DNA of 64,000 nt, from positions 1-64,000 of the forward strand of contig CAUYUJ010002079.1 of NCBI GenBank assembly GCA_963575745.1. The letters are read 5' to 3'. The translations under genes and the position numbers were made by a program. The notes below the pieces were generated by a model that saw only the letters and a program-made list of their open reading frames with translations, did not search any database and had not been told where the DNA came from. This stretch comes from Prorocentrum cordatum (lineage: Eukaryota > Sar > Dinophyceae > Prorocentrales > Prorocentraceae). Shown in pieces: positions 9,721 to 64,000 of the stretch (its first letter is position 1; every line of letters begins with the position of its first letter).

Positions 9721-9911
9721 GCAGTCGGTTCCCGGAAGTGAACCGATAGTAAAACTTCCTCGGGGAAGCTGAGCTGCTCCCAGAATGAAGATTATATGCA
9801 AATGCTTCGCGTGAAAATCTGCTTTCTCAAAATGAATGCTTGGATATCTTTCAATTTTTAGCAAAACCCACCAAAAGTTATCACATTGTCCGTTTTGGTC
9901 GGGTCGACCAA
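9721..9911 (+). mobile_element. Body fragment of a B/C-type element (host of the first insertion)
   Basis: Matches the body at 59105-59290: the TTCCCGGAAGT motif, AAAATCTGCTTTCTC, and the terminal TTGGTCGGGTCGACCAA palindrome. It ends at ...GACCA-A where the type A element starting at 9912 has inserted. The host resumes at 11466 (CTAGCTCCACC). Confidence 0.75.
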
Positions 9912-11465
9912 CTGGGCGCCGGCGGTAAACCGTCAACCTTGGTTACCGCCGGGGGACTCATAGAGCTTCCTTGCCATATAGCATCTAAAGAATGAGCAGA
10001 GCACGAAAAGTTGTTCAGCCCGAGCGCTAATAGCAGACTGATTGCAGCCGTCTAGATACATTCATCTAGCGCCTCTGATGATGTCCTTCCAATTGCTGTG
10101 CAGAACAGCCCCGTAGCTCATCTACAACGCGAGTTGACCACGAAAACCAATACCGTCTCCAAGAAGGTAGCAGAGTACGAACAGATGTTCAGCCCGAGCG
10201 CTGATAGAAAACTGATTTCAGAGGTCTAGATACTATCAAATAGCGCGCCTCATAATTGTCTTCCGATTGCTGTAGCTCGGGAGCCTCGAGTTCAGCCAGA
10301 AAAATCATTCCATCACCAGGAAAATAAACATAATACGAATAGTTGTTCGGCTTCTGTGCTGAGAACAGACCGAATCCAAGCGTCTAGATACTTCAGACTA
10401 GCGCGCATGATAATTCCCTCCCGATTTCTCTGCCAAAGAGCTCTGAAGCTTAGATGAGCTCGACTTCATCATCTCGAAAAAAAAGGTAGAATACGAATAG
10501 CGTCGCGGACCTAGCTCGAGTAGCAGACCGAGTTCAGACCTCTAGATGCTTCAGCCGAACGCGCCTGATGATTCTGAATCGAGTACGTGTGCGCATCAGC
10601 TCTGTAGCTCTCCTACAGCTCGAGTTAAGTATTAAAAACCAACACCAGCTGTAAAGAAAATGCGTAAAATACGAATAGTTTTACGGACCTAGCTCGAGTA
10701 GTGGACCGAGTTCAGACCTCTAGATGCTCCAGACTAACGCGCGCATGATGATTCTGAATCGATTACGTGGGCGTACAAGCTATGTAGCTCGCCCACAGTT
10801 CGAATTAAGTACAGAAAACCGAGAGCACCTGTCAACAAATTTCGTAGAATACGATTAGTTTCGCGGACCTAGCTCGAGTAGTGTACCGAGTTCAGACCTC
10901 TGAATGCTTGAGACGAACGCGCCTGATGATTCTGAATCGATTACGTGGGCGCATCAGCCGTGTAGCTCTCCTACAGCTCGAGTTAAGTACCGAAAATCGG
11001 CAGTATCTGTCGAGAAAATCGGTAGAATACGAATAGTTTCGCGGACCTAGCTCGATTAGAAGACTGAGTGCAGACCTCTAGATGCTTCAGATGAACGCGC
11101 CTGGTGATTCTGAATCGGTTTCTGTGCGCACCAGCTCTGTAGCTCTCCTAAATCTCGAGCTTAAGCACAGAAAACCGTCAACGCGTGTCAAGATGACTCG
11201 ACACGGCTGATCCCGCCTGGATGCTTTTTGGCAGTACTAGGTACCGGATCGAGCTGAGATTGAGACGGCGAGCGGGAATAATATCGAATATCACGGGAAA
11301 AAATGCTAGAGCTCTAACGAATGGTTGAATTTCGAGAACATAATTCTCAACCGAGCAAAACTCACCAAAAGGTCCGTCGAGATTTTTCTTGCCAACTAGC
11401 CCTCCAGCGCCCCGGAATTACTCTTGTAGCTTCCAGCAAGTTGCTAAGGGAAGCTCTACGAGTTA
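9912..11465 (+). mobile_element. Complete type A element (1554 bp)
   Basis: Begins CTGGGCGCCGG with the full hairpin, then the arm ACTCATAGAGCTTCC (one mismatch). About seven ~178-bp units follow, then the conserved ~280-bp right end and GGAAGCTCTACGAGTTA. Removing it joins GGGTCGACCAA to CTAGCTCCACCCCGCG, the uninterrupted host sequence seen elsewhere (for example 52715-52735). Non-coding. Confidence 0.8.
11190..11465 (+). repeat. Conserved right-end module of type A elements
   Basis: Landmarks are GCCGATCCCGCC, TTTTTGGCAGTA, ACCCGATCGAGCTGAGATT, GGCGAGCGGGAATAAGATCG, AAAATACTAGAGCTC, CAACCGAGCAAAAGTCACC, TCCGTCGAGATTTTTCTTGCC, CTCTCCAGCGC and the terminal arm. Other copies are at about 12615-12729 (interrupted), 16957-17229, 27255-27525, 27540-27782, 30750-31014, 33530-33800, 33815-34058, 35365-35589, 38740-39020, 40280-40435, 41625-41892, 46930-47151, 54010-54207, 56485-56746, 58740-58958, 60750-61022 and 63610-63854. 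Confidence 0.8.
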
Positions 11466-11487
11466 CTAGCTCCACCCCGCGCCGGAA

Positions 11488-12729
11488 CTGGGCGCCGGCG
11501 GTAAATCGTCAACCTTGGTTACCGCCGGGGGACTCGTAGAGCTTCCTTGCCATATACCATCTCTAAAGAATAGCAGAGTACGAATAGTTGTTCAGCCCGA
11601 GCGCTAATAGCAGACTGATTGCAGCCGTCTAAATACATTCAACTAGCGCCTCTGATGATTTCCTCCCGATTGCTGTGCAGAACAGCCCTGCAGCTCATCT
11701 GCAGCGCGAGTTAAGACCAAGAAAACGAGTACCGTCTCCAAGAAATTAGCAGAGTACGAATAATTGTTCAGCCCGAGTGCTCATAGAAGACTGAACTCAG
11801 GGGTCTAGACACTATCAAATAGCGCGCCTCATGATTGTCTTCCGATTGCTCTGCCTAAGAGCTCGGGAGCTCATCTGCAGCTCGAGCTTAGTCAGAAAAA
11901 CATTCCATCACCAGGAAAAAAACATAATATGAATAGTTATTCGGCTTCTGTGCTGAGAACAGACCGAATCCAAGCCACTGGATACTTCAGACTAGCGCGT
12001 CTGATAATTCCCTCCCGATTTCTGTGCCTAAAAGCTCTGAAGCTTAGATGCAGCTCGACTTTAGTCAAGGGGCTCACCATCATCTCGAAAAAACGGTAGA
12101 ATACGAATAGTTTCGCGAACACAGCTCGAGTAGCTGACCGAGTTCGGACCTCTAGATGCTTCAGACGAACGCGCCTTGATTCTGAATTGAGTAGGTGTGC
12201 GCACCAGCTCTGTAGCTCTCCTACAGCTCGAGTTAAGTACAGAAAACCGACAACAGCTGTCAAGAAAATTCGTACAATACGAATAGTTTTGCGGACCTAG
12301 CTCGAGTAGTGGACCGAGTTCAGACCTCTGGATGCTCCAGACGAAGGCGTCTGATGATTCTGAATCGATTGCGTGGGCGCATTAGCCATGTAGCTCTCTT
12401 ACAGCTCGAGTTAAGTACCGAAAATCAACAGCGTCTGTCAAAAGAATCGGTATAATACGAATAGGTTCGCGGACCTAGCTCGAGTGGCAGACTGAGTTCA
12501 GAACTCTAGATGCTTCCGACCGATGAACGCGCCTGATGATTCTGAATCGTTTTCTGTGAGTGAGAGCTCGGTAGCTCTCCTACAGTTTGAATTAAGTACC
12601 CGACAGCACCTGTCAAGATGACTCGGAACGGCCGATCCCGCCGCGATGCTTTCTGGCAGTAACAAGTAACCGATCGAGCTGAGATTAAGACGGCGAGCGG
12701 GAATGAGATCGAATATGGTCAGAAAAATA
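11488..12729 (+). mobile_element. Type A element, 5' part, interrupted by the next A element
   Basis: Head at 11488 inserted at GCCGGA-A of the host. After ~178-bp repeats and the start of the right-end module it is broken at AAAAATA/CTAG by the element starting at 12730. Its remainder (CTAGAGCTCTAACG...) resumes at 17230. Confidence 0.7.
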
Positions 12730-12756
12730 CTGGGCGCCGGCGGTAAACCGTCAACC

Positions 12757-13085
12757 TTGGTTTTTGCTTTGCTCGGAGCCCAAAGGGACAAAGGAGCCCC
12801 CGCTCAGGATTCAGGTCCGCAGCAGAGGAGCAGCAGGTGCTCGACACCTTCAGCGAGGCGCTTGCTGGCCAAGAGCTCAGCTTGACTAACCGTGCAGGTC
12901 GGCGGGATGGCGGCAGCCTCAGAAGCTAATAAGTTGAATAGCCAAGAGCCTTGAGTGTGTTGAAGAGCAGGGAGGGGGAGCACGAATAGGTCAATAACCC
13001 AACCAAAGCCAACACCGTGGGAGGAACGACCACCATCGAAGTAGCCGCGAATCCCTTTTATTTGTTCCCTTCCCGCGGTAACCTT
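12757..13085 (-). mobile_element. 5'-truncated non-LTR retroelement 3' end
   Basis: On the minus strand this ~330-bp piece consists of the last ~83 codons of a retroelement ORF2 (12804-13053), a very short 3' UTR and the A-rich tail GCAAAGCAAAAACC abutting CCAAGG of the hairpin loop. It is severely 5'-truncated, as typical of target-primed reverse transcription. A second retroelement (13086-15940) lies directly upstream. Confidence 0.65.
12804..13053 (-). pseudogene. Fragment of retroelement ORF2: N-terminal half of an RNase H fold at the C-terminus
   Basis: About 83 codons ending at TGA (12804-12806). The reading contains YFDGGRSSHGVGFGW, a textbook RNase H first strand with its catalytic Asp and a Gly-rich turn. 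53 residues after that Asp comes the Glu of SQAELLASKRL, the helix-A motif. The protein then ends. The homologous segment of RT1 (13372-15978) sits after, not before, the other RNase H half, so this tail supports a permuted domain order. The frame is open but lacks everything upstream. Confidence 0.65.
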
Positions 13086-15940
13086 GGTTTTTGCGGCTTT
13101 GCGAGGCTCCTACTGGCCCTAGGGCCACGAGCAAGCACGAGGTCAGGTGTCTTCAGGAAGCGAAAGCTCTTATTCGAACATAAAGTCAAGACAACCCAGA
13201 GCAGCGAAGCTGCGATGAATCATCAATCACAAATATGAGCGAACGAACAAACGCACACAGAAATGAATCAAAATGCAGTCAACTAAACATGCAAGAGAAA
13301 AGAGAACTCCCAGCGAAGCTGAGTATATCATAGTAAGAGAAAGAAACAACGAATTGAGAAAACTGCAACTATCAAGTCTGTGGTAACCATAGAGCTGCCT
13401 GTGGGAGCGCAGTCACGATGCACTCCAAAGCACTGAGTTCTGTATCAGTAACAGTTGTAGTTGGACAAATAAGCCAAGCCCTCTCAAAAACTGACTTCCA
13501 TATCAGCTGAGCGGGGTCCCGTCGATCCCAATACCGTGGTTTGAGGCCTATGTCTATCCAGCAACCGCACCCACATCCCTCAGACGACACGCCGCCATCG
13601 AAACCAGCCCGAATAGCAGCAGCAACGTAAAATTCTGTCTCATAATCATGTGTATACGGACTACATTCTGAACTAAATATCTGGCCCTCTCGGGCCTGGT
13701 GTGTAAGGACGTCGGCTCGAGTATTCCACTCCCGAAAATCATGACGAATTAGATCCATCCCCGGCGCTGGAGGTCGTATATTATAGCTGCTACAAAGCCC
13801 ATCAAGCGTATTGATTATTTTTGATATTCTATCAGCATATGATCTATTATCTGCACGCCACCGTCCCGTAGCCCAGCTAACCACGAGGAGCGAGTCACCC
13901 ACCACCTCCAGAGGGATTCCAGGGGCCTCCAGGTTCCAACGAGTTGCTTTCATATTATGAAGGGCGATGCGCTTTGCAAGTTTCTCAGCAGCCATCGGAC
14001 TATCATCCGTGCTCACCTGAATTTCACCATGCTCTGAGGGCGCCAAATATGCGGGCGAACTCACAGGTCCACACGTCGACACCTCCTGGAAACATCGAAG
14101 CATGCTCTGAGTACAAAGGTGCGTGACATATTGCATAAATCCAAGCTGGGAACCTGTGAACTGAATCCACCAATCATCCCCGAAAAACTCAGCTAATGTA
14201 TATTGCCATGATCTCTGGCCAATACTCTCCGTCCCTCGACAGCGACGTTTGTAAGAAGAAGCCTCCGACCAGTTGCCAAAGTGTCTCATCGTCTCACTCA
14301 TAAGTGTGCGAGTGCGGTCAGTGTACGGTCCAAAACATAAACACGCCATACGGGAATCGCGCCATGTCCTCTCCGCCGCCTTCAAGTCGATCACTTTCTC
14401 AACAATCATGCCATTTGCGAAACTTGCAATGTCTTTTGCGAAATTCCAGTGCAACATCAGATAACGCTGGACGAGAGAGGAGTACCCAGCCTTCAAGAAA
14501 CGATCCCGTGCAACATGATATCTCCTTTCCTGATAAGCTTGCTCCGTTTCCGTCGGCCCTTTCCGAGACGAGATCATCATCTTCAGGCACTTCCCTTCAA
14601 AGGAATGGAGAAACGAAAGAGTATAAGAATCTGCAGTGGTGGTCTCCATACCGCACAGAGCCAGGCTCTGGACTCTATCCTGGTATCTCCGAAGCTTGTC
14701 CTTGAGAGGGACACAATGCGACCTGAAATACCCTGCCTGGGAGTAAAATGCACGGCGAGCACAGTCTAGGCGAAAAGACACATCACGATGTATAGAACAG
14801 TTATATTCACTATGCAGCTGCGTGCCCAGTACGTCCATAGAAACGACTCGACGGTAACATAACTCATCAATCTGCTGCACTGCATTCTTCCCACCACATG
14901 CATCAGAGAAAATCGGTATTTTCAGATCCATCGAACGTGGAATATTCCCGTCCTCATCCAAGACAGCAGGAGCTCCGCACACCATGTACTTCAGCGATGT
15001 GGGTTTCCATCGCATCGAGAAGTTGTAAAGTGGAAGTGTCAAGTCTCTTACCATTCGAGTAAGCTCCTCACGGCTACGGCTGACGAGGTACACGTTATCT
15101 GCCCAGATAAAATGATTCACCACCGACCGATGCTCCGTACCGAAATCTACCGCATACCCCAGGCCCTGAACGTCCCAATTATGGATAACGTCACCCCACA
15201 TGGCAGCAATAATGAGGTTAAAGCCCAAGGGCCCTTCTGGGCCTCCAGTCCTAATACAGGTGTCCCACTGGATGTTATCAATCTCCAACCCGTCATAGTA
15301 GAGGCAGCCCGTGCTGTGCGATAACGGATCCAGAAACGCGTGCTGTAAATACGCAGGGACACGTGCATGCTCAAGACCCTTATGTACGTTCTGTATCGTG
15401 CAGTTGTCAAAGGCCTGGTATATGTCCATGTCCGCAACGTACAGACACTCACGCTTTCCCCACTTGTCCCCGTGCATACACATATTAGTAAGGCTACTCG
15501 TGATATGAGATGTGCTGTGACCCTGGCGGAACCCATAGAGGCCCAGAGGATGAAATAACTTAGACGCCTCCACATGCTGCTCAACCAGGATGACCACGCA
15601 CGCTGAGAACCAGCGAGTTATGCTATTCTGCAAGCACAAGAGTCGAGCATCCGCCAAGTTCGTGATCCCCTTTAGTTTAGGCATATATGCAATAAGAATA
15701 TCCCTCCATCGAACAGGGTACTGGACAGCCAACCTCAAGAGAGAGTCGAAGATCTGTTGGATATGCCGAAGTGTGCACCATGGGAGAAGCTTGAGCATTT
15801 CACAAGGTACGCGATCAGGTCCTGTTGCCCGTCGCGTTCGAAGACGAGCCCTCGCTGCACAACATATCGACATCGTAATACTTCGAACGATCTGGCCACC
15901 CTTGATCTCCTCCTCCGCCTTCCTCCTGATCTCCTCCATC
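13086..15940 (-). mobile_element. 5'-truncated non-LTR retroelement RT1
   Basis: 2.86 kb, sense on the minus strand, ending in a 3' tail GCCGCAAAAACC next to CAAGG. The 5' end starts inside the reverse transcriptase-encoding region (equivalent to about residue 149 of the 19111-21945 ORF) and is joined directly to GGTTACCGCC of the host hairpin. The bases TGGTT are shared by the outer left (12757) and right (15941) host junctions, compatible with a short target duplication. The 3' UTR has two CAGCGAAGCTG hairpins (13202, 13311). Confidence 0.75.
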
Positions 15941-15978
15941 TGGTTACCGCCGGGGGACTCGTAGAGCTTCCTTGCCAA
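13372..15978 (-). CDS. Non-LTR retrotransposon reverse transcriptase with C-terminal permuted RNase H
   Basis: Open frame of 868 codons. The first ~13 residues come from the host hairpin, so the true N-terminus is missing. RT motifs: ATGPD (51-55), GFRQGHST (149-156), motif A DIYQAFD with Asp185, motif B TGGPEGPLGFN (244-254), motif C IWADN (291-295; the usual second Asp is Asn). A ~350-residue thumb and linker region follows. The C-terminus carries RNase H motifs in permuted order: GDSLLVV (Asp695), REWNTRAD (Asp756), then GFDGG (Asp794) and TDTELSALE (Glu847). Endonuclease and ORF1 are absent through 5' truncation. The frame has no internal stop, so the copy is young or selected. The enzyme would copy its own RNA at a nicked chromosomal target. 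Confidence 0.85.
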   Translation of the reverse strand: MARKLYESPGGNQMEEIRRKAEEEIKGGQIVRSITMSICCAARARLRTRRATGPDRVPCEMLKLLPWCTLRHIQQIFDSLLRLAVQYPVRWRDILIAYMPKLKGITNLADARLLCLQNSITRWFSACVVILVEQHVEASKLFHPLGLYGFRQGHSTSHITSSLTNMCMHGDKWGKRECLYVADMDIYQAFDNCTIQNVHKGLEHARVPAYLQHAFLDPLSHSTGCLYYDGLEIDNIQWDTCIRTGGPEGPLGFNLIIAAMWGDVIHNWDVQGLGYAVDFGTEHRSVVNHFIWADNVYLVSRSREELTRMVRDLTLPLYNFSMRWKPTSLKYMVCGAPAVLDEDGNIPRSMDLKIPIFSDACGGKNAVQQIDELCYRRVVSMDVLGTQLHSEYNCSIHRDVSFRLDCARRAFYSQAGYFRSHCVPLKDKLRRYQDRVQSLALCGMETTTADSYTLSFLHSFEGKCLKMMISSRKGPTETEQAYQERRYHVARDRFLKAGYSSLVQRYLMLHWNFAKDIASFANGMIVEKVIDLKAAERTWRDSRMACLCFGPYTDRTRTLMSETMRHFGNWSEASSYKRRCRGTESIGQRSWQYTLAEFFGDDWWIQFTGSQLGFMQYVTHLCTQSMLRCFQEVSTCGPVSSPAYLAPSEHGEIQVSTDDSPMAAEKLAKRIALHNMKATRWNLEAPGIPLEVVGDSLLVVSWATGRWRADNRSYADRISKIINTLDGLCSSYNIRPPAPGMDLIRHDFREWNTRADVLTHQAREGQIFSSECSPYTHDYETEFYVAAAIRAGFDGGVSSEGCGCGCWIDIGLKPRYWDRRDPAQLIWKSVFERAWLICPTTTVTDTELSALECIVTALPQAALWLPQT

Positions 15979-17229
15979 AAAAGTAAGCAGAGTACGAATA
16001 GTCGTTCAGCCCGAGCGCTAATATCAGACTGATTGCAGCCGTCTAGATACATGCAACTAGCGCCTCTGATGATTTCCTTCCGACTGCTGTGCAGAACAGC
16101 CCTGTAGCTCATCTGCAGCGCGAGTTGACCAAGAAAACCAACACCGTCTCCAAGAAATTAGCAAGCGACTAGATACTTCAGACTAGCGCGTCTGATAATT
16201 CCCCCCCGATTTTTGTGCCAAAGAGCTCTGAAGCATGGATGCAGCTCGACTTCAGTCAAGGAACTCACCATCATCTCGAAAAAAATCTGTAATACGAACA
16301 GTTTCGCGGACCTAGCTCGAGTAGCAGACCGAGTTCGGGCCTCTAGATGCTCCAGACGAACGCGCCTGATGATTCTGAATCGAGTACGTTTGCGTATCAG
16401 CTCTGTAGCTCTCCTACAGCTCGAGTTAAGTAAAGAAAACCGACAACAGCTGTCAATCAAGAACATTCTTACAATACGAATAGTTTGGCGGACCTACCTC
16501 GAGTAGTAGACCGAGTTCAGACCTCTAGATGCTTCAGACAAACGTGCATGATGATTCTGGATCGATTCAGTGGGCGTACAAGCTATGTAGCTCTCCTACA
16601 GTTCGAGATAACTAGAGAGAACTGAGAGCACGTGTCAACAAATTTCGTAGAATACGAATAGTTTCGCGGACCTAGCTCGAGTAGTGGACCGAGTTCAGAC
16701 GACCGCGTCTGATGATTCTGAATCGATTTTGTGGGCGCACCAGCTCTGTAGCTCTTCTACAGCTCGAGTTAAGTTCCGAAAATCGACAGTATCTGTCAAG
16801 AAAATCTGTAGAATACGAATAGTTTTGCGGGCCTGGCTCGAGTACCAGACTGAGTTCAGATGAACGTGCCTGATGATCCTGAATCGGTTTCTGTGCGTAC
16901 CAGCTATGTAGCTCTCCTAAATCTCGAGTTAAATACAGAAAACCGTCAACGCGTGTCAAGATGACTCGAAACGGCCGATCCCGCCCGGACGCTTTTTGGC
17001 AGTAATATCTACCCGATCGAGCAGAGATTAAGACGGCGAGCGGGAATGAGATCGAATATCACGGGAAAAAATACTAGAGCTCTAACGTGGTCGAATTTCG
17101 AGAACATAATTTCAACCGAGCAAAAGTCACCAAAAGGTCAATCGAGAATTTTCTTGCCAACTAGCTCTCCAGCGCGCCGGAATTACTCTTAAGCTTCCAG
17201 CAACTAGCTAGGGGAAGCTCTACGAGTTA

Positions 17230-17344
17230 CTAGAGCTCTAACGAATTGTTGAATTTCGAGGACATAATTTTCAACCGAGCAAAAGTCATCAAAAGGTCCG
17301 TCGAGATTTTTCTTGCCAACTAGCTCTCCAGCGCGTTCGAATTA
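17230..17344 (+). mobile_element. Remainder of the type A element begun at 11488
   Basis: CTAGAGCTCTAACGAATTG through TCTTGCCAACTAGCTCTCC, interrupted at TTCGAATTA by the element starting at 17345. Confidence 0.65.
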
Positions 17345-17375
17345 CTGGGCGCCGGCGGGAAACTGTCAACCTTGG

Positions 17376-18765
17376 CTTTTTGCTTTGCGCAGAGCCACAG
17401 GCCTGAGTTCAGGCCCGTTCGAGTCACAGCCTAACGCAGATGGGGCGAAACAGGCCAAGCGCCTGAAGGACCGCCGCCACACCTTTCAGGAGGTGCTTTG
17501 CAGCAAGAAGTTCAGCCTGGGTCGCTGCACACGAGGGCGGAAGACGAAAGGCTTTCCAGGCAACCCTGCACCACCAGAAACCGTTCGGAGAAGCGGAGCC
17601 ATCCAGATGACTAAGATGAAAAGGAAGCGTTGGAAGAATGTACAGATCGAGAACCGAACCGCCGCCGCAACCTCCAGAGGAACGGCCTCCATCGAAGAAG
17701 CCACTCACTCCGAGAACGTTCGAAGCATTCATTGTTGATAATGTAACTGGGGTTGCCCACACTGCCCCGAAACCAGCACCGCCGACGTCGCGCCAGTGGG
17801 CAGGCAGGCAATGGCATGAGACTAAAATCAACCTACGAGTGCACACATACCTGTGCAAGATAACACTGCAAAATGTCTCTCATGAGCCCTGCAAGCGGGG
17901 AGCGAAGGAAAGCCAGCGGGAGAGCGGGGGGGCCCAAAGAGACAAAGCGAGCCCAGGGGCGAAAGCAGCACAGGGGGGGAGAGGAGCGAGGTGGCGTTGA
18001 TTTACGGCTTTGATCTGCAGATGGTGGCGATTATTTCCGGCTTTGATCTTCGCTCTCTCCGTTCCCATCGAAGCAGTCCACATACTCTGTAGCCGCACTC
18101 ATAGAACTGTGGGGCAACACCGTGCGACCTGACGCCGTACACGCAGGGTCCATCACAGACCACAAGGCACGAAGTCAGGCTACAACGCGGAGTGCCACAC
18201 CGGCCCCACGATATCCAAGAGAGCTTGAACAAGTACGGAGGCCTTACGCCGATGGGCAATACCGATTCGCTCCTCAGTGGAAATGTAATATAGGCATTGG
18301 CACATGTCAGGGAACTGACCATACACCAGGGGGTCCGCCCAGGCTTGCACGAATGCATCCCACTCCTCGTGGGGGCACTGATGCCAAGCTCCCAAGAAGT
18401 CAACAACCCAAATTCTCTATGCATTCACGGACTCCTCATCACTCGAGTCGTCATCGTCTTCTTTCGGAAACATGCCCAAGTATGTACGCAGCACGCCTGA
18501 GTCCACATACGGCCGCGGCAGGAGAGAATGAACCACATGATCCGCCGTGGATGCAAGCACTGGCGGGGCCTCCGCAACAGGCACCTCTTGTCGGAAACAA
18601 TACCGTTTGATACGCATGGTTCGGGGGTCAATCGCAAGAGCAGGAGGATGGACCGAGCAACTCGCATCCGAAGCGGGCACAGCGGGAACGGCATCAGGGG
18701 TGGGATCGGCACCGCTCACTCTAGCACCTTCCGCCTCCACGGCAGCACCAGTCTCAGCATTGGTT
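17376..18765 (-). mobile_element. Non-LTR retroelement 3' fragment, diverged
   Basis: Sense on the minus strand. It ends with the A-rich tail GCAAAGCAAAAAG joined to CCAAGG of the loop. It holds the RNase H tail ORF (17424-17858) and, further 5' (18002-18740), several short minus-strand frames rich in Trp/Cys/Asp-Glu that I cannot identify; these may be upstream ORF2 parts broken by frameshifts. Its 5' boundary is set where the next retroelement's tail (TTGG then TTTTTG at 18764) begins. Confidence 0.5.
17424..17858 (-). pseudogene. Retroelement ORF2 C-terminal fragment with RNase H first-strand and helix-A motifs
   Basis: 144-codon frame ending at TGA. Residues 53-58 read GFFDGG followed by a Gly-rich turn, and residues 113-118 read ATQAEL with Glu116, 60 residues after Asp56. 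These match the C-terminal RNase H part of the RT1 and RT2 proteins. No RT motif is present, and the other RNase H half is not found in this frame. Probably a decayed, distinct subfamily. Confidence 0.5.
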
Positions 18766-18951
18766 TTTGTTGCGTCTTTGCTGGGACCGTCTTGGCCACT
18801 GAGGCCAGGCCCAACGAAGTCTCAGGCGAACCAGAGCCTCCTATTCGCCACGCAAGCAGTCAGCTCTTATTTCACATCAGCGAAGCTGTTGGAATAAAGC
18901 TGCAAGAATATACAAGAAAAAAATGTGTGAGATGAAACAAAGTGCGACTTA

Positions 18952-19110
18952 TCACTGCGAATGACCAGAGAAGTTCTGCACAACCTGTGGGAGCACATCA
19001 CATATACGCTCCGCCGCTGATATCTCTGCATTTGTCACCGTGGCGCTTGATGGTAAGCACCAAGCTGCGAGATACACATCCTTGAAAGTGATGTCGGTCC
19101 GCGAAAAGAT
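18952..19110 (-). pseudogene. Readthrough extension of RT2 ORF2: RNase H helix A beyond an in-frame TAA
   Basis: In frame with the 19111-21945 ORF but separated from it by the TAA at 19111-19113. Translation continues 52 codons to TGA (18952-18954). It contains TVTNAEISAAE, aligned with TVTDTELSALE of RT1; the Glu lies 51 residues after the FDGG Asp. The stop therefore splits a conserved domain and is most simply a nonsense mutation. Programmed readthrough is a less likely alternative. Confidence 0.7.
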
Positions 19111-21945: not shown

Positions 21946-22244
21946 ATGCCGCCGAGCCCGATGCTCATCAGCCCAAGTCGAACACTTGTATCCGACCAGG
22001 GACGGCCTAAAACTTTGACCAGGCTGGGGTCTGGGCGACGAACAATCACTTTCCCAGGGTCCGTGAAACTCGCCGTGATGATTGCGTGATCTGATAATCT
22101 ACCGACCTGCTTCTTACCACCCCTCTTGAAACACCATTTCACCTCCAGATCCGAAAACTCCCAACGGTATGGGACAAGTAGATAATCCAGGACCCTCTTC
22201 GAAGTCAGAAACTTGTTCTCCCCCCACGACTCCCAAGTATGCCT
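21936..22244 (-). pseudogene. RT2 ORF2, end of the endonuclease domain in a shifted frame
   Basis: This frame reads ARRHTWESWG, then DYLLVPYRW and GRLSDHAIITASF, the conserved last blocks of exonuclease-endonuclease-phosphatase (AP-like) domains; the His of SDH is catalytic. It continues the domain of 22205-23458 after a frameshift near 22245. A second frameshift near 22050-22090 leads into the RT frame. Confidence 0.7.
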
Positions 22245-23458
22245 CCTAGCGTTGAAAGTGCGGCGGCCTTCAGTTTCAGTCCATGCGATTCCATGAACTC
22301 TAAGAGCAGCTCCTTCAGCCTCCTCCTCCGATTCCCCCTCTCAATCTGCTGTGTACCATCCCCTCCTCTCTCCCACTTTCTTTCCATACGAGTACCTTCC
22401 TTTCCAGTAGCCTCATACACCTCCCCATTATACATAAACTTGCATCCAGGCGGAATCTCCACATCTGCGTCAAGCAGAACACAAAAGCTGGCCTGAGGAA
22501 ACTTGGTGCGGAGTCCGTCACGAGCACGAGTAATCTGGTCATAGACCTCCGCAGCTATCTCTTCACAATCCTCCACATGACGATCTGGCAAATACGCTGA
22601 AACAATAATGCGTGGTGACTTTTCTGACCCAAAGACGCCGGTAACAAACCTCGTGAAACATGTAAAGAACATACGGACAGCAGCCGCCCAATTCCTGTCG
22701 AAGATGAGGGCCGTTCTACTACGCGAACTAGTTTTGATGCGCCACCCCAGGCGTTCAAATTCACCATGCACAAGGTATTGAGTTTCCTGACATGCAAAGA
22801 GCCCACCACATGCCCTCATATGATGGAGAATCTCAGCACATTTAAAGTGAGCCTCACCTGCTTTGTTCAGGTTCCAGCTCCCCAAACGTATGCCTCGGAT
22901 GAGGCGTCGTAAACGCCACTGCCTACGATTCATCTCCTGAAGTATCGCATCCATGGGGACCGTCAGCGCAGGATATATAGATACAATACGAGCCCATGCG
23001 TCAGCATGTAAAACCCAGGCCCCAGTGGTGTTCGTATATGTCGCAAAGCAAACGGGGCGGAGATTCGGAACAGCTTGAGTCCAAATCTGACTTCTCGGTG
23101 GCCCCATTTCCCCACGGATCTCGATTTGAACATGAGCCGATGTCAAACTACGCCAAGTACCACAGAAACGAGCCACCGCTTTCACAGGATCACGCTTCCA
23201 GGGGGGACACTCCACCAGCGTACGAATCTTTTTGGGGTCAATTGGCGTGTCCATATTTTGAATGAGAACCTCGGCATCTGGATATGTATAACCTGGAGGC
23301 GGAGCGAGACGGTCGGCTGGGTCTTTGCAAACCATGTATGTCCACTTCTTGATTATCCAGCGGGTGTCCCGCGGTGTCCCTTCTTTGAAACCGATCTTCG
23401 CACTTCCGTACATATACCGTCCTCCGTTTAATCGTTCAGTTGTCTTTATCATACGCAT
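22205..23458 (-). CDS. RT2 ORF2 N-terminal part with AP-like endonuclease
   Basis: 417-codon frame. Residues 1-190 have no recognised domain. The endonuclease starts at LGSWNLN (192-198, catalytic Asn) and continues with ACQETQ (222-227, the metal-binding Glu), IIVSAYLPD (284-292) and CVLLDADVE (326-334, at the usual GDFN position with Asn replaced by Asp). The frame is lost shortly before the SDH block, which lies in another frame (see 21936-22244). The enzyme would nick the target DNA to prime reverse transcription, so it is the candidate determinant of the hairpin-loop specificity. The ATG at 23458 overlaps the end of ORF1 by 23 bases. Confidence 0.75.
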   Translation of the reverse strand: MRMIKTTERLNGGRYMYGSAKIGFKEGTPRDTRWIIKKWTYMVCKDPADRLAPPPGYTYPDAEVLIQNMDTPIDPKKIRTLVECPPWKRDPVKAVARFCGTWRSLTSAHVQIEIRGEMGPPRSQIWTQAVPNLRPVCFATYTNTTGAWVLHADAWARIVSIYPALTVPMDAILQEMNRRQWRLRRLIRGIRLGSWNLNKAGEAHFKCAEILHHMRACGGLFACQETQYLVHGEFERLGWRIKTSSRSRTALIFDRNWAAAVRMFFTCFTRFVTGVFGSEKSPRIIVSAYLPDRHVEDCEEIAAEVYDQITRARDGLRTKFPQASFCVLLDADVEIPPGCKFMYNGEVYEATGKEGTRMERKWERGGDGTQQIERGNRRRRLKELLLEFMESHGLKLKAAALSTLGGILGSRGGRTSF

Positions 23459-24419: not shown

Positions 24420-24480
24420 GAAACTTCCTCAATACCTAGACGAAAAATTCAGCGTACAATACACAGATGTAATGTATGCA
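24302..24480 (-). repeat. 94-bp direct repeats in the RT2 leader
   Basis: ACAAGAAACTTCCTCAATACC (plus strand) occurs at 24322 and 24416 with similar flanks (CAGCGTGCAATACACAG versus CAGCGTACAATACACAG). Related sequence, CAGCGTACAATACATCGG, occurs near 37850 in a deletion derivative. Tandem leader repeats are common in LINE promoters; a promoter role here is inference. Confidence 0.6.
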
Positions 24481-25842: not shown

Positions 25843-25940
25843 CGAGTTCAGACCTCTAGATGCTTCAGAGGAATGCGCCTGATGATTCTTTATCGCTTCC
25901 TGTGCGCGCCAGCTCTGTAGCTCTCCTGCAGCTCGAGTTA

Positions 25941-31014: not shown

Positions 31015-31126
31015 CTAGAGCTCTAACGACTTGCTGAATTTCGAGAACATAATTTTCAACCGAGCAAAAGTCATCAAAAGGTCCGTCGAGATTTCTTGCC
31101 AACTAGCTCACCAGCGCGTTCGAATA

Positions 31127-50950: not shown

Positions 50951-51296
50951 CTGGCGCCGGCGGTGAACCGTCGACCTGGTCAGGAAACCTCGTAGAGATC
51001 CTTCCACATCGACAGAGAGAGCTTCTGGGAGCATTTCGCCCCAAAAAAAAATATTTGTCATGTCGATTCCGTTTTCAAAGTACATGTGCTCCTACAGAGC
51101 TCACATTGAGGCGCAGAGGCCAATCGTTCAGGGTGAAAAAACGGTTTCCTCAAAATGAACTGTCAAATATCTTTCAAATCTTTGCAAAACCGACCCAAAG
51201 TTGTCACATTGTCTCTTCTGGTCGGGTCGGCCAACTGGCTCCATCCCGCGACGGAATTCCTCAAAGCTCATCGACGCCGAAGAGCTCTACGAGGTA
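50951..51296 (+). mobile_element. Complete type B element (346 bp) with A/T target
   Basis: CTGGCGCCGGCGGTGAACC to GAGCTCTACGAGGTA. Flanks TAGCTCATCGA and TGCCGAAGAGCTTCACGAGG rejoin to the normal B/C right end. Confidence 0.85.
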
Positions 51297-54424: not shown

Positions 54425-54825
54425 CTGGAAACCGGCGGTAAACCGTCAACCTGATTACCGCAGGGAACCTCGTAGAGCTCTTTCCTTGCACGGCGATCCT
54501 CCGAACACATGAAGAAAGCTTCTGGAGCGAGAAACAAAAAAATCGGAAAATCACATTTTTCTGTTTTTATCCAACGACGGTTGCTCCAAGTGTTTTGATA
54601 GTAATACTGCACCTACGGACCTGAGAATTTGACTGGCAGACGCGGCATAACCCACTACAGGTGCGAAAAATATGCTTTCTTAAAATAAATGGTCAAATAT
54701 GTTTCAAATATTCGCAAAACCACCCAAAAGTTACCACTTTGTCCTTTCTGGCCAGGTCGACCAACTAGCTCCACCCCGCGCCGGAATTCCTCTAGCTCAT
54801 CGATGTCGAAGAGCTCTACGAGGTA
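54425..54825 (+). mobile_element. Complete type C element (401 bp) with A/T target
   Basis: CTGGAAACCGGCGG to GAGCTCTACGAGGTA. Uninterrupted and well conserved, so a good reference copy. Its body contains AAGTGTTTTGATAGTAATAC, ATAACCCACTACAGGTGCG and CCAACTAGCTCCACCCCGCG. Confidence 0.88.
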
Positions 54826-55199: not shown

Positions 55200-56785
55200 C
55201 TGTCGCCGGCGGTGAACCGTCAACCTAGTCACCGCCAGGAACCTCGTAGAGCTCCTAACAGGCACGAAAGTGCTTAGAATCGAAGCAGACAGCTTCTCGC
55301 GGCCGTTCTCGAGAAATATCAACTTTCATTTTTCGATGTCACTCCGATGTCGGTTCCCACTCATTTTCGGATAGTAAAACTCTCGAGAGAGCTGATCTGC
55401 TCTGACAATAAAGTTTAGATACAAATGCTACGCGTAAAAATCTCCTTTCTCAAAATAAATGGCCAAATATCTTTCATTTGTTTTACAAAACGGCCCAAAA
55501 GTTATCAGTCCATTCTGGTCGGGTCGACCAACTAGCTCCACCCCGCGCCGGAACTGGGCGCCGGCGGTAAACCGTCAACCTTTCTTACCGCCGGGGGACT
55601 GGTAGAGCTTCCTGACCATATATAATGTCGAAAAAAATTGCAGAGAACGAATAGTTTGTCAGCGTAAACGATTCCAGACCTCTCGATGCAACAGCCGAAC
55701 GCCCCTCATGCTTCTGGATCGTTTTCTGTGCGCACGAGCTCCGTAGCTCTCCTACAGCCAGAGTTACGTGCGAAAATCGACAGCACCTCTCAAGATCACT
55801 CGAACAATACAAATAGTTTCTCGAGTATCAGACCGAGTTCAGACCTCTGAATGCAACAGGCGGCGCCTGATGTCTCCGAATCGATTCCTGTGATTACCAG
55901 CCCTGCAGCCCCCTTACAGCCCGAGTTAAGTGCAGAAAACCGATAGCACCTCTGAAGATGACTCGAACAATATGAATAGTTTCGCGGACCTAGCTCGAGC
56001 AGCAGACGCGTTCAGAGCTCTGAGTGCGACAGACGGACGCGACTGATGTCTCCGAATCGATTCCAGTGATTACCAGCCCTGCAGCCCCCTTACAGCTCGA
56101 GTTAAGTGCAGAAAACGGACAGCATCTCTCAAGATGAATCAAAGAATACAAATGGTTTTGCGGACCTAGCTCGGGCAGCACACCGAGTTCTCAGCTCTGG
56201 ATTTGGCAGACGGGCGCGCCTGATGTCTCCGAATCGATTCCTGTGAGTACAAGCCCTGTGGCCCCCCCTACAGAACGAGTTAAGTGCAGAAAACTGACAG
56301 CACCTCTCAAGATGACTCGAATAATACGAATAGTTTCGCGAACCTAGCTCGGGCAGCAGACCGAGTTCAGACCTCTAGATGGAACAGACGAACGCGCCTG
56401 ATCATTCGCAATCGATTTCTGTGAAAATGAGCTTCGTAGCTGCCGTACAGGTACAAAATACCGACAACGCGTATCAAGATGACTCGAAACAGCCGATCCC
56501 GCCGCAACGCTTTTCGCAGAAATATTTACCCGATCGAGCTGAGATTAAGACGGCGACCGGGCAAAAGATCGAATATGGTCAGATAAAATACTAGAGCTCA
56601 AACGAATTGTTGAATTTCGAGAACAAAATTTTCAAGCGACCAAAAGTCAGCAAAAGGTCCGTCGAGATTTTCTTGCCAATTAGCTCTCCAGCGCGCCGGA
56701 ATTACTCAAGCTTCCAGCAACTAGCTAAGGGAAGCTCTACGAGTTATTCCTCTAGCTCATCGATGCCGACGAGCTCTACGAGGTA
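55200..56785 (+). mobile_element. Type B element (net about 393 bp) containing an A-prime element
   Basis: Head CTGTCGCCGGCGGTGAACC at 55200, closing GAGCTCTACGAGGTA at 56785. Flanks GGTTGGCGAA and CTAGCTGAACCCCGCG rejoin as a C-element body. Confidence 0.8.
55554..56746 (+). mobile_element. Complete type A-prime element (1193 bp) with A/T target
   Basis: CTGGGCGCCGGCGG to GGGAAGCTCTACGAGTTA. Flanks CCCCGCGCCGGAA and TTCCTCTAGCTCATCG rejoin exactly. Innermost level of a four-level nest. Confidence 0.88.
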
Positions 56786-56856: not shown

Positions 56857-57252
56857 CTGGCGCCGGCGGTGAACCGTCAACCTGGTCACCGCCGGGAACC
56901 TCGTAGAGCTCCTTTCACGCGCGAGAGTGCTCAGAGTCAAAAGCGTGAGCTTCTGGAGGCATTTCGTGTCGAGATGAAGTGATGTTTTTCATGTCGAGAT
57001 GAAGTTGGTTCCCCCAGGTGCTTCGATAGTGAATGTGCGCCTACAGAGCTCATATTAAGACGCAGAGACCCTCATAGTCGTTTACAGGTGCGAAAAATCT
57101 GCTTTCTCAAATTGAGTTGTCAAATATCCTTCAATCTTTCGCAAAACCACCCAAAAGTTATCACTTTGTCCTTTGTGGCCGGGTCGGCCAACTAGCTCCA
57201 CCCCGCGCCGGAATTCCTCTAGCTCATCGATGCCGAAGAGCTCTACGAGGTA
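56857..57252 (+). mobile_element. Complete type B element (396 bp)
   Basis: CTGGCGCCGGCGGTGAACC to GAGCTCTACGAGGTA. It is followed by an extra B/C right end (57253-57312) before the host resumes TTTTGCACAAAG. Confidence 0.75.
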
Positions 57253-59632: not shown

Positions 59633-61022
59633 CTGGGCGCCGGCGGTAAACCGTCAACCTTTCTTACCGCCGGGGGACTCGTAGAGCTTCCCGACAGCAT
59701 ATGACGTCAAAAAAATTGCAGAGAACGAATAGTTTTTCAGCCAAAGCGATTTCAGACCTCTCGATGCAACAGCCGAACGCCCCCCGATGCTTCTGGATTG
59801 TCTTCAGTACGAGCTCTGTAGCTCTCCTACAGCCCGAGTACGTGCGTAAATCGACAGCACCTTTCAAGATGACTCGAACAAAACGAATAGTTTGGCAAAC
59901 CCAGCTCGAGTATCAGGCCGAGATCAAACCTCTGCATGCGACAGGCGGACGCGTCTGACGTCTCCGAATCGATTCCTGTGATTATCAGCCCTGCAGCCCC
60001 CCTACAGCCCGAGTTAAGTGCAGAAAGCCGACAGCATCTTTCAGCATGACTCGAACAATACGAACAGCTTCGCGGACCTAGTTCGGGCAGCAGACAGAGT
60101 TCGGAGCTCTGGATTCGAAAGGCGGACGCACCTGATGTCTCCGAATCGATTCCAGTAATTACCAGCCATGCAGCCCCCTACAGCCCGAGATAAGTACAGA
60201 GAACCGACAGCATCTCTCAAGATGACTCGAACAATACGCATAGTTTCGCGATTCTAGTTCGGGCAGCAGACCGAGTTCCGAGCTCTGGATTCCACAGGCG
60301 GACGCGCCTGATGTCTTCAAATCGATTGCTGTCACCGCCAGCACTGTAGCCGCCCTACAGCCCGAGTTAAGTGCAGAAAACCCTCTCAAGATGACTCGAA
60401 CAATACGAATTGTTTCGCGATTCTGGATCGGGCAGCAGACCGAGTTCAGTGCACTGAATTCAACAGACAAACGCGACTGACGATTCTGAATCGGTTACTG
60501 TAAGAATCAGCTCTGTAGCTGTCCTACAGCTCGAGTTAAGTACAGAAAACCGAGAGCACCCGTCAAGATGACTCGAATAATACGAACAGATTTGCGGACC
60601 TAGCTCGGCTAGCAGACCGAGTTCAGACTTCTAGATGCAACAGGTGCACTCGCCTGATCATTCTAAATCGATAAGGTGTGCTTACCAGATCTGTAGCTGT
60701 CCTATATCTCGAGTTAATAAGTCCAATATACCGACAGCGCGTATCAAGATGACTCGAAACAACCGATCCCGCCGCAGTGCTTCTTGACAGTAAAAAGTAC
60801 CCGATCGAGCTGAGATCAAGATGGCGAGCGGTAATGAGATCGAATATCACGGGAAAAAATACTAGAGCTCTAACGAATGGTTGAATTTCGAGAACAAAAT
60901 TTTCAACCGAGCAAAAGTCAGCAAAAGGTCCGTCGAGATTTTTCTTGTCAACTAGCTCTCCAGCGCCCCGGAATTACTCTTAAGCTTCCAGCAACAACTT
61001 GCAAGGGAAGCTCTACGAGTTA
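59633..61022 (+). mobile_element. Complete type A-prime element (1390 bp)
   Basis: CTGGGCGCCGG to GGGAAGCTCTACGAGTTA. Excision joins GGGTCGACCAA to CTAGCTCCACCCCGCG. Confidence 0.8.
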
Positions 61023-61044: not shown

Positions 61045-61990
61045 CTGGGCGCCGGCGGTAAACCGTCAACCTTTCTTACCGCCGGGGGACTCGTAGAGCT
61101 TCCTGACAATATATAATGTCGAAAAAAATTGCAGAGAACAAATAGTTTTTCAGCCCAAGCGATTTCAGACCTCTCGATGCAACAGCCGGGAGCCCCCGAT
61201 GCTTCTCGATTGTCTGCTGTACGAGCTCTGTAGCTCACAGCCCGAGTTACGTGCGTAAATCGACAGCACCTCTCAAGATGACTAACAAAACGAACAGTTT
61301 GGCAACCCAGCTCGAGTATCAGACCGAGGTCATGGGCTCTGTATTCGACAGGCGCACGCGTCTGATGTCTCCGAATCGACTCCTGCGATTACCAGCCCTG
61401 CAGCCCCCCTACAGCCCGAGTTAAGTGCAGAAAACCGACAGCATCTCTCAGGATGACTCGAACAATACAATAGGTTCGCGATGATAGATCGGGCAGCAGA
61501 CCGAGTTTCGAGCTCTGGATTCGACAGGGGGACGCGCCTGATGTCTTCAAATCGATTCCTGTGACCACCAGCACTGTAGCCCCCCTCAGCCTGAGTTGAG
61601 TGCAGAAAACCGAGCACTTCTCAAGATCACTTGAAGAATACGAATAGTTTCGCGATTCTAGATCGGGCAACAGACCGAGTTCAGAGCTCTGGATTCAACA
61701 GACGAACGCGACTGATGATTATGAATCGGTTTCTGTAAGTATCAGCTATGTAGCTCGAGTTAAGTACAGAAAACCGGGAGCACCTGTCAAGATGACTCGA
61801 ATAGTACGAATACGTTTGCGGACCTAGCTCGGCTAGCAAACCGAGTTCAGACCTCTGGATGACAGACGAATGCGCCTGATCATTCTGAATCGATTAGCTC
61901 TGCTTACCAGCTCTTTAGTTGTCCTGAAGCTCGAGTTATGTTCAGAAAACCGTCATCGCGTGTCAAGATGACTCGAAACGGTCGATCCCG
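61045..61990 (+). mobile_element. Type A-prime element, truncated by repeat family E
   Basis: Head at 61045 and about five diverged units. It stops in the right-end module at GTCGATCCCG, where unrelated sequence begins. Confidence 0.6.
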
Positions 61991-62250
61991 GCACTTGGTA
62001 GCGACACCGGGAGAGCCAAGAACCTCTGGGACGGGAAATCTTTCCTGGAGAGCCCTGGCGCTCCCCAGAAGCGCTTCTGAAGCGCTGCCGGGAACGCTAC
62101 CAGCCATGCCTGCATGCATGCAGGCCCGCGTGACCGCCTGCTGGAAGCGCGCCCAAACCCGCTGCCGGCTCAGGCGAGTTGCTGCGAGGATCGTGCAGCA
62201 CCACCGTCCGGCCTCTAATCTAAACCCTCTGTCTCTCAGAGAGCTCTCCG
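61991..62250. repeat. Palindrome-centred repeat family E, copy 2
   Basis: Perfect 18-bp palindrome at 62108-62125 (half-site GCCTGCATG), CGCTGCCGG on both sides, and the CACCACCGTCC...CTCTCAGA tail shared with 39230-39435. No open frame of interest. Confidence 0.6.
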
Positions 62251-62692
62251 GGAATATCTTTCAAATCTTAGCAAAACCGACCCAAAGTCACCACATTGTC
62301 TCTTTTGGTCGGGTCGACCAACTAGCTCCAGCCGCGCCGCAATTCCTCTCGCTCATCGACGCCGGAGAACTCTACGAGGTACTAGCTCTCCAGCGCGCCG
62401 GAATTACTCTTAAGCTTCCAGCAATAACTTGCTAAGGGAAGCTCTACGAGTTACTCCACCCCGCGCCGGAATTCCTCTAGCTCATCGATGCCGAAGAGCT
62501 CTACGAGGAACAAGCTGCGCCCCGCGCCGGAATTCCTCTAGCTCATCGATGCCGAAGAGCTGCACGAGGTAAACCGACGCCAGGTTGTGACTTGATAGCG
62601 TCCAAAACCCGCAGAGCGACTGGCGCCGGTTGTCAAGCAACTTTTCACCGACCGAAATTTATCACATCTTCTTTTCTGGTCGGGTCGACCAA
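62251..62692 (+). mobile_element. B/C body fragment and stacked right ends
   Basis: AATATCTTTCAAATC to GGTCGACCAAC, then right ends at about 62381 (GAGGTA), 62454 (GAGTTA), 62513 and 62572 (GAGGTA-like), a short head remnant (CTGGCGCCGG) near 62620 and another GGTCGGGTCGACC. Confidence 0.55.
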
Positions 62693-63854
62693 CTGGGCGC
62701 CGGCGGTTTACCGCCGGGGGACTCGTAGAGCCTCCTGACAACATATACTGTCGAAAAAAATTACACTGAACAAATAGTTTTTCAGCCCAAGCAATGTCAG
62801 ACCTCTCCGATGTAACAGCCGAACGCCCCCGATGCTTCTGGATTGTCTTCTGTGCGAGCTCTGCAGCTCTCCTACAGCCCGAGTTACGTGCGTAAATCGA
62901 CAGCACCTCTCAAGATAACTCGAACAAAAAACAAATAGTTTCGCAAACCTAGCTCGAGTATCAAACCGAGTTCAGACCTCTGCATGCGACAGGCGGATGC
63001 GTCTGATGTCTCTGAATCGATTCCTGTGATTACCAGCCCTGCAGCCGCCCTACAGCCCGCGTTAAGTGCAGGAAACCGACAGCACCTCTCAGGATGACTC
63101 GAACAATACGAATAGTTTCGCGGACCTAGTTCGGGCAGCAGACAGAGTTCGGAGCTCTGGATTCGAAAGGCGGACGCACCTGATGTCTCCGAATCGATTC
63201 CAGTGATTACCAGCCATGCAGCCCCCCCACAGCCCGAGTTGAGTGCAGAGAACCGACAACATCTCTCAAGATGACTCGAACAATACGAATAGTTTCGCGA
63301 TTCTAGATTGGGCAGCAGACCGAGTTCAGAGCTCTGGATTCAACAGACGAACGGCCACTGATGATTATGAATCGGTTTCTGTATGTATCAGCTCTGAAGC
63401 TGTCCTGTAGCTCGAGTTAAGTACAGAAAACCGAGAGCGCCTGTCAAGATGACTCGAATAATACGAATAGATTTGCGGACCTAGCTCGGCTAGCAGACCA
63501 AGTTCAGACCTCTGGGCTCAACAGGCGAACGCGGCTGATCATTCTGAATCGATTAGCTGTGTTTACCAGCTCTGTAGCTGTCACAAAGCTCGAGTTATCT
63601 TGAGAAAACCGGCAGCGCGTGACAAGATGACCCGAAACGGCCGATCCCGCCTGGACGCTTTTTGGCAGTAAAAGGTACCCAATCGAGCTGAGATCAAGAT
63701 GGCGAGCGGGAATAAGATCGAATATCACGGGAAAAATACTAGAGGTCTAACGAACGGTTGAATTTCGAGAACAAAATTTTCAACCGAGCAAAAGTCGTCA
63801 AAACGTCCGTCGAGATTTTTCTTGCCAACTAGCTCTCCAGCGCCCCGGAATTAC
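62693..63854 (+). mobile_element. Type A-prime element with a loop-deleted hairpin
   Basis: The head reads CGGCGGTTTACCGCCG: both stem halves are kept but the whole 14-nt loop is gone. ~178-bp units and the right-end module follow to GGAATTA, where a C head enters at about 63855. Confidence 0.65.
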
Positions 63855-64000
63855 TAGGAACCGGCGGTAAACCGTCAACCAGGTTACCGCCGGGACCCTC
63901 GTAGAGCTCTTTTCTCACAGGACGCTCCTCGGTAAGAATGAAGAAAGCGTCTCGAGCAAGACCTGAGAAACTCGAAAAATCACGATTTTCTGTTTTTATC
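63855..64000 (+). mobile_element. Type C element, cut by the window edge
   Basis: GGAACCGGCGGTAAACC...GGTTACCGCC, arm CCTCGTAGAGCTC and the start of a C body. Its 3' end is outside the window. Confidence 0.65.

Follow-up and report, generated by a model that had tools for sequence, protein, structure and literature searches.

The DNA considered here, called the window, is a stretch of 64,000 nucleotides (positions 1-64000 of contig C2079) from the dinoflagellate Prorocentrum cordatum, and from ~9721-9912 to its end it is occupied by an array of hairpin-ended mobile elements of three families (A, B and C) that lie inside one another. In the plus sense the layout has a single orientation, with each element beginning with a head (CTGG, a hairpin and a left terminal inverted repeat, TIR) and finishing with an end (a right TIR and GTTA or GGTA). 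With the head query GCCGGCGGTAAACCGTCAACC, at up to three mismatches on both strands, 38 matches are present in the window versus 0.00 expected from 100 shuffles, 37 on the plus strand and one on the minus strand (39072-39092), and a looser scripted list contains 41 starts on the plus strand plus that one inverted head. The end query AGCTCTACGAGKTA, at up to one mismatch, gives 39 matches versus 0.04 expected; since eight of them, on the minus strand, are left TIR arms of B/C-type heads, 31 true ends are left. The preliminary description of this DNA, made from the letters alone, had counted about 48 starts, of which the 41 and the inverted copy are supported and the rest are not; its bracket-like nested array is real, as these head and end counts and the gapless unfilled paralogues described below indicate. 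At 9721-9780 a different hairpin-like start (TCGGTTC...GAACCGA) precedes a body of B type and may be an additional type of head with which the array opens.

The nesting is literal. The joined flanks of start/end pairs are found as contiguous, unfilled paralogues with a gapless junction (for example 9912-11465, 25941-27525, 47152-47543, 50951-51296 and 55554-56746), and the outer element at 11488-36299 has been expanded to 24.8 kb. A pile-up of closing ends at 36164-36623 is the expected outcome if later elements insert into the tails of those already present, with several closers among the stubs at 36.2-36.5 kb fitting one opener, so that the pairing there is ambiguous. Part of the array looks to have grown by composite movement or duplication: the nested pair at 25001-27814 and 31196-34090 has 86% identity and looks copied as one block, and the site shared by the elements at 25941-27525 and 32215-33800 is, from the sequence, probably the result of such a composite duplication.

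The same elements are found throughout the genome (4,128,499,153 bases in 21,875 contigs were searched). Exact family-A heads number 16,076 (7,732 and 8,344 on the two strands) versus 0 for a reversed-pattern control, and the family-A 5' end has 1,246 exact matches. The heads are dispersed over very many contigs and both strands; on contigs C6, C19 and C27 all heads among the matches listed are on one strand, and on C23 they are mixed. A scan of the window with Rfam gave no family at gathering score. The array is real, genome-wide and, judged from the features described below, Helitron-like.

Read on the minus strand, which is the Helitron sense, all families have the start TA(A/C)CTCGTAGAGC, an inverted partner of that start, a hairpin, CCAG and then T, as the preliminary description had seen in proposing a HINE-like architecture. 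Family A consists of TAACTCGTAGAGCTTCC, ~330 nt, a few imperfect 178-bp repeats, GGAAGCTCTACGAGT, the hairpin and CGCCCAG, whereas the few complete copies read of families B and C measure ~350-570 nt and are without the 178-bp repeats, with the family-B 5' end carrying TACCTCGTAGAGCTC. HINE/DINE-1 elements, which are non-autonomous Helentrons, have inverted repeats of 12-15 bp located 2-4 nt from the 5' end, a partner repeat 38-60 bp from the 3' end, a 3' palindrome and, in some copies, tandem repeats (PMC4067079; here and below, papers are cited from excerpts). In the present elements the 5' TIR ACTCGTAGAGCTTCC starts 2 nt in and its partner stands at about column 45 of the head, both within these ranges, and near the 3' end there is a palindrome (stem of 10-12 bp) at columns 8-41 from the end, as in canonical Helitrons and in HINEs (8-35 bp); the terminal T-run of Helentrons is absent. 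The 5' ends read TAACTCG or TACCTCG, and the start termini read CCAG in 38 of 41 cases, CTAG in one (63854) and other variants in two. The earlier statement that the canonical 5' TC and 3' CTRR are missing is therefore borne out, except that the head at 63854 would end in CTAG.

Among ten start/end pairs taken as unambiguous and readable, the outer TIR letters are complementary (A/T or C/G) in eight and unpaired in two (11488-36299 and 40436-41892). In the hairpin alignment, which comprises 31 of the 41 heads (the five broken by a retrotransposon and five damaged ones being left out), pairing is kept in 91.0% of cells over 27 distinct rows, versus 20-57% when the alignment is slid, and a two-sided change is present at one pair, from A-U to G-C, in 5 of 27 rows.

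The mode of insertion can be read from unfilled sites, which were sought by matching the left flanks of the 41 starts, or the joined flanks of pairs, within the window. An unfilled paralogous site is present for 33 of the 41 starts, four of these sites (44687, 52097, 55200 and 56857) with weak matches of at most 25 bits; the eight starts without one in the window are 37394, 42178, 43274, 45676, 47653, 51338, 51757 and 59294. The empty paralogues have gapless junctions and no target duplication, in agreement with the earlier claim of insertion without a long one, and no TA duplication of the Tc1/mariner kind is seen in them. The next base at the best unfilled site is T in 14, C in 13, A in 6 and G in 0 of the 33 cases in the plus sense, so that the 5' neighbour in the Helitron sense is A in 14, G in 13 and T in 6. 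From the flanks, the element is CTGG...GKTA in the plus sense and enters at A^H with no duplication, which corresponds to D^T in the Helitron sense (a caret marks the insertion point or the border between element and flank), where one T on each side is indistinguishable from a one-base duplication. An A precedes CTGG, which is a T 3' of the element in the Helitron sense, at 40 of 41 starts in the window, where the A content of the array is ~27%, at 70 of 72 heads in loci outside it, and at 100 of 100 genome heads among the matches listed, of 16,076, with the three sets possibly overlapping slightly; this is the flanking T that had been noted earlier. After the ends, the base is C 15, T 8, A 7 and G 0 times in the window (n=30) and C 74, T 25, A 10 and G 1 times in other loci (n=110).

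An important point is that the sites of insertion recur. Flanks were classed, from 12 letters each, at 100 listed genome heads that are the first by contig and not a random sample: 59 of the 100 match one of four fixed sites that belong to another member, either within it or at its end, namely CCAA^CTAG (30), CCGGAA^TT (14), GGAATTA^CTC (3) and another element's end (12, eight exact and four with one mismatch). Within the window, A sits in a B tail at the same site at 11488, 55554, 57402 and 61045, B in an A tail at 35590 and 58959 (and, displaced by two bases, at 47152), A in an A tail at 17345, 27783 and 34059, and C in an A tail at 63854; since different guests are located in different hosts at the same site, insertion there has been recurrent. 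End-to-start junctions with zero gap are present at 12 of 138 ends (0/28 in the window and 1/6, 1/21 and 10/83 in three outside sets of loci), at least three of them between different families (L051, L055 and L056). The hot spots lie at, or at most ~90 nt from, the host's 5' end in the Helitron sense, with the guests sharing the orientation of the host. Resident copies are thus frequent targets, so that copies stack like Russian dolls, and the nested arrays fit self-targeting.

A second kind of element is found inside the hairpins. Five heads in the window (12730, 17345, 27783, 37394 and 42352) share a break at a single point in the hairpin loop, following AACCTTGG or AACCTGG, and the filler consists of the T-rich 3' ends of a minus-strand retrotransposon, with flanking repeats of GGTT (4 bp) and CAACCTGGTC (10 bp) in two copies. 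A sixth junction, of GGTAACCTTGG with TTTTTGCGG, lies near 13088 inside the first copy and has a similar target with no recognisable head. The open reading frame (ORF) at 13372-16005 has a reverse transcriptase (RT) domain (RVT_1, E=1.3e-8); for the longer ORF at 19111-22098 RVT_1 is at E=0.034, below the cut-off, and 60% of it matches a Prorocentrum cordatum protein with 84% identity. No endonuclease domain was matched in these ORFs by Pfam up to E=1, APE-like motifs being seen by eye in the alignment, and a related protein, P0003, had no match among solved structures. In the genome, a 3'-end query of one subfamily (TTTTTGCGGTCTTTGCGGTCG with non-G 14 bases before, 14 flanking letters each) gave 29 copies, all of them listed, and 28 are joined to loop-like sequence (20 exact GTCAACC, six with one mismatch and two with two); the remaining copy is 32 bp from another and is apparently a local duplication. 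Among 107 heads of the window and the loci, at least nine are non-intact, six with a T-run at the loop point and three with other losses, a count that is too low because at least four known cases, of which three are window heads and one is in L008, escape the regular expression. As read from these junctions, the insert appears to be an RT-encoding retrotransposon without long terminal repeats (non-LTR) that is specific for the terminal hairpin loop. Tx1L of Xenopus is a non-LTR retrotransposon specific for the DNA transposon Tx1D; the present case differs in that the host is a Helitron-like element, whose terminal hairpin loop is the target.

Genes that might supply the enzyme are common in the genome. 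Helitron_like_N has at least 151 matches (150 scored of 1,615 candidates) and Pif1_2B at least 129 (150 scored of 756), with at least 58 contigs carrying both among the matches listed. In the 3' flanks (3.2-5 kb each) of seven RepHel families, two have a hairpin followed by 7 nt and CTAG^T, one (C14074/C21153) has a weak GC-rich match, and the other four have no hairpin-CTAG^T. The two candidate ends are CCGTGGAT-TTA-ATCCACGG-GTGCACA-CTAG^T in the C19677/C17482 family and GCGCGCGC-GAA-GCGCGCGC-GATGGTT-CTAG^T in the C7602 family, 2 being seen versus 0.02 expected from 60 Markov resamples, and versus 0.45 for the looser C(T/C)RR^T, where 3 of the 60 resamples reach 2. The two copies C19677 and C17482 remain alike for ~107 bp past CTAG because both lie in similar host repeats, and the end is therefore placed by its motif. 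These ends are candidate canonical Helitron 3' ends that would share their logic with the hairpin-CCAG^T of the array.

A coding element having the ends of the array, for which the preliminary description had suggested a genome search, was not found among the variant ends examined: none at 119 variant 5' ends (100 listed, 30 read as loci) or 54 variant 3' ends (all listed, two read as loci), where the remaining ends were seen only as short matches, so that the absence of a coding partner is not established. Similarly, the 18 kb around the Rep of C14422 (a 1,797-aa family) contain no convincing A, B or C end, only fragments with one or two mismatches, and 45 ORFs of at least 300 aa from loci L015-L036 have no tblastn match in the sampled element loci or the window. 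In partial lists, the 54 variant-3'-end contigs and the Rep/Pif1 contigs have an overlap of 0, which is weak evidence as less than one would be expected by chance by a rough estimate. Viral contigs were also considered and set aside, the six exact 17-mer matches being about the chance level by rough arithmetic.

Based on these data, we read families A, B and C as non-autonomous, Helitron-like single-strand transposons that would be moved by a RepHel/HUH enzyme in trans and that target themselves, with a loop retrotransposon on top, and we assign to this reading a probability of about 0.7. Judged from its sequence, the plan of a 5' TIR, a ~178-bp array in family A, an inverted TIR partner, a hairpin and CCAG^T is that of HINE/Helitron elements with non-canonical ends. 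Several observations weigh against the reading: the missing TC and CTRR, a stem-to-end spacing of 2-3 nt versus 7 nt in the two candidate canonical ends, a covariation of one pair with a two-sided count not above shuffles (465 of 500 reach the same), a site D^T that is neither the strict A^T of Helitrons nor the T^T of Helentrons, and the variant ends at which no coding element was met. In addition, 41 of the 100 listed flanks are other sequences, and the 59 others, besides coming from the non-random sample, are not 59 events since some shared junctions may be composite copies. The relation to Helitrons that was proposed earlier holds for the plan and for the RepHel-type genes in the genome, while membership in the Helentrons is not supported: T^T is present at 6 of 33 sites, T-runs are absent and no partner was found among the ends examined, and for these reasons the families are not filed there.

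Comparison with known systems leads to the same placement. Like HINE/DINE-1, the elements have inverted repeats, a palindrome and central repeats; unlike the T-run ends and TT site described there, they have TA(A/C)CTCG and CCAG ends, a D^T site and strong self-targeting, and a Rep/helicase/endonuclease partner was not found here (PMC4067079). Cg_HINE of the Pacific oyster likewise has Helentron-type flanks around short satellite-like arrays, whereas nested hot-spot arrays are not described in its main text, where "nested" occurs 0 times (PMC7492417). Canonical Helitrons, for which the C19677/C17482 and C7602 families have candidate 3' ends here, share the 3' hairpin, C(T/C)AG, the flanking T and the lack of duplication but have 5' TC and CTRR, where the present elements have TIRs and another stem-to-end spacing. 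FoHeli/Helitron2 of Fusarium has asymmetric terminal inverted repeats, and self-insertion and nested composites are reported for it, but these are coding elements with other termini, with one nested example and some doubled 5' termini (PMC5148889). For maize, one case is described in which unlike Helitrons adjoin head to tail with no gap between the end of one and the start of the next, interpreted there as insertion one after the other, versus 12 of 100 listed genome heads here (PMC2267711). Self-insertion and head-to-tail pairs are thus reported as occasional events (PMC5148889, PMC2267711), while they make up a large share of the listed copies here. The word Helitron does not occur in the main text of the genome paper on P. 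cordatum (PMC10666404), and no description of such a system was seen in the titles and abstract starts listed by searches of the open-licence PMC literature.

Other origins of the elements have to be weighed. They might be TIR DNA transposons of the DDE type duplicating a TA target, with the element then being CTGG...CGAGT between TAs. TA follows many ends, 19 of 100 listed genome flanks end in TA, and the TIR-like arms pair; however, one arm is subterminal with the hairpin outside it, the sites CCGGAA^TTCC, CGACCAA^CTAG, CCTCA^TA and CCGGA^ATTAC have no left TA, and the empty sites can be reconciled with this reading only by counting the TA as part of the element. A TA-duplicating DDE transposon is ruled out by the empty sites without TA, the reading is already contradicted, and we consider it very improbable. 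Another single-strand element (IS200/IS605-like, with a Y1 HUH enzyme) or a tyrosine-recombinase element (Crypton-like), with the hairpin as the recombinase binding site, would also give base-exact, duplication-free junctions with a fixed neighbour base, and its coding partner is not known. The asymmetric TIR, 3' hairpin, C(Y)AG^T and central repeats nevertheless match HINE/Helitron (PMC4067079), and RepHel-type genes are common in the genome, in which Y1/tyrosine-recombinase genes were not searched for; we regard this possibility as unlikely.

Two further readings concern the way in which the copies have spread. If the array were an old satellite of one composite unit that spread by unequal crossing-over and segmental duplication instead of insertion, the duplicated composites at 25001-27814 and 31196-34090 and the orientation-locked state of several clusters would be accounted for. 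As guests and hosts of different families share junction sites, unequal crossing-over of one unit, an origin raised in the preliminary description, did not by itself produce the array, and apparent singletons in other DNA (L011, C1), thousands of heads on very many contigs and base-exact ends also speak against it; with the unfilled sites and mixed-family junctions, the satellite reading is largely refuted and scarcely credible. As to the loops, the retrotransposon may have no site specificity: it may have entered a hairpin once and then have been multiplied there by the Helitron-like replication of its host. A passenger in the loop could be carried along by an element of this kind, and the genomic comparison covers the 3' ends of one subfamily only. 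By contrast, the junctions lie in unlike heads (AACCTTGG, AACCAGG, AACCTGG) with variable T-runs, two window copies have unlike flanking repeats of 4 and 10 bp, and the window copies re-enter at different points, which leaves the passenger a small chance.

With the Helitron-like reading, the following pathway can be proposed. A RepHel/HUH enzyme supplied in trans, which we infer since no coding element with the same ends was found, would start at the 5' end and peel off or copy one strand as far as the 3' hairpin. The strand would be joined, presumably by the same enzyme, at a T with no duplication of the target. When docked on the 5' end of a resident copy, the enzyme may nick a T nearby and use the nick as acceptor, by which newcomers would recur in the orientation of the host at a few fixed Ts and copies would stack as Russian dolls. 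The RT-encoding non-LTR retrotransposon would then use the terminal hairpin loop as its integration site. Both the enzyme and the docking step are unproven. That the nesting has a cause is indicated by the 59 of 100 flanks at fixed sites. Going further, we suggest tentatively, and with rather less than even confidence, a parasitic system of three layers, in which resident 5' ends are programmed acceptors that are used in one orientation, both by exact joining of end to end and at fixed Ts that lie 40-90 nt inside, nested arrays across the genome are the normal form of growth, and an obligate non-LTR retrotransposon is specialised on the loop.

Table. Features of the window, with the candidate RepHel 3' ends of two outside loci in the last row.
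Feature	Position	Strand	Basis or remark
Family A element, TAACTCG...178-bp repeats...hairpin-CCCAG, in B-type tail at CGACCAA^CTAG	9912..11465	-	Empty paralogue 55486-55581, gapless
Outer family A element, filled by later insertions, in B tail at CCGGAA^TT	11488..36299	-	Joined flanks match 62426 onwards, 19/20 junction bases; closing TIR arm mutated
Family A element with loop retrotransposon, in A tail at AATA^CTAG	12730..17229	-	Flank/junction matches
Non-LTR retrotransposon in loop, GGTT flanks 12759-12762 / 15942-15945	12763..15941	-	RT frame 13372-16005
Family A head 17345, loop broken by long retrotransposon ~17372-24610, body resumes ~24618	17345..25940	-	Junctions; closer among stubs at 36.2-36.5 kb, pairing ambiguous
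Retrotransposon ORFs 19111-22098 and, upstream, 22205-23482 (APE-like by eye only)	19111..23482	-	Protein match
Family A element in 178-bp repeat at GAGTTA^AGTACAG	25941..27525	-	Gapless empty site
Family A head 27783-27809, loop broken by 5'-truncated retrotransposon ~27810-29134	27783..29134	-	Junctions
Family A element at GAGTTA^AGTACAG	32215..33800	-	Gapless empty site
Family B element in A tail at CGAA^TTAC	35590..36164	-	Empty site
Closing-end pile-up (Helitron-sense 5' ends), partly tail stubs 44 bp apart	36164..36623	-	End motif
Head, loop broken by retrotransposon 3' end	37394..37420	-	Junction
Sole inverted head in window	39043..39092	+	Head motif
Family A element at ACAAAA^TTTTC; TIR arms differ in one letter	40436..41892	-	Joined flanks
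Short retrotransposon in B-type loop, CAACCTGGTC flanks 42373-42382 / 42634-42643	42383..42633	-	Junctions
Family B element in A tail at CCGGA^ATTAC	47152..47543	-	Joined flanks 98% to 30917 onwards
Family B element in B tail at ATCGA^TGCCG	50951..51296	-	Joined flanks
B/C-type element at CCTCA^TA	54425..54825	-	Joined flanks
Family A element in B tail at CCGGAA^TTCC	55554..56746	-	Joined flanks
Family B element, complete head and tail	56857..57252	-	Empty site weakly supported
Family A element at CGACCAA^CTAG	59633..61022	-	Empty site
Family A element at CCGGAA^TT, contains damaged B-type insertion ending 62381	61045..62453	-	Empty site
Retrotransposon copies in loops, all	12763-15941, 17372-24610, 27810-29134, 37421 onwards, 42383-42633	-	Junction reading
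Candidate RepHel 3' ends (hairpin-7 nt-CTAG^T)	L077 near 3050; L080 near 2572	L080 minus	

Besides these features, the array contains at 48000-50752 a GC-rich stretch that includes 14 copies (99%) of a 90-bp tandem repeat, ends in a run of 37 A at 50716-50752 and looks, from its sequence, like a retroposed insert. Outside the array there are a 107-bp tandem repeat of ~10 copies at 6686-7793 and, to the left, two stretches of ~750 bp at 2058-2810 and 5444-6198 that are 90% identical.

Finally, we note what these results would mean. They suggest a mechanism-level reason for the self-nesting of rolling-circle-type elements, namely that resident ends act as targets, and they bear on target choice by Helitron-type enzymes and on the growth of dinoflagellate genomes. 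If the proposal is true, the retrotransposon is specialised on the hairpin by which the end of transposition is itself marked, and a retrotransposon tied to a transposon hairpin in this way would be a clear-cut example of a mobile element that has adapted to the structure by which another is recognised, and would help to show whether the hairpin is needed for transposition.

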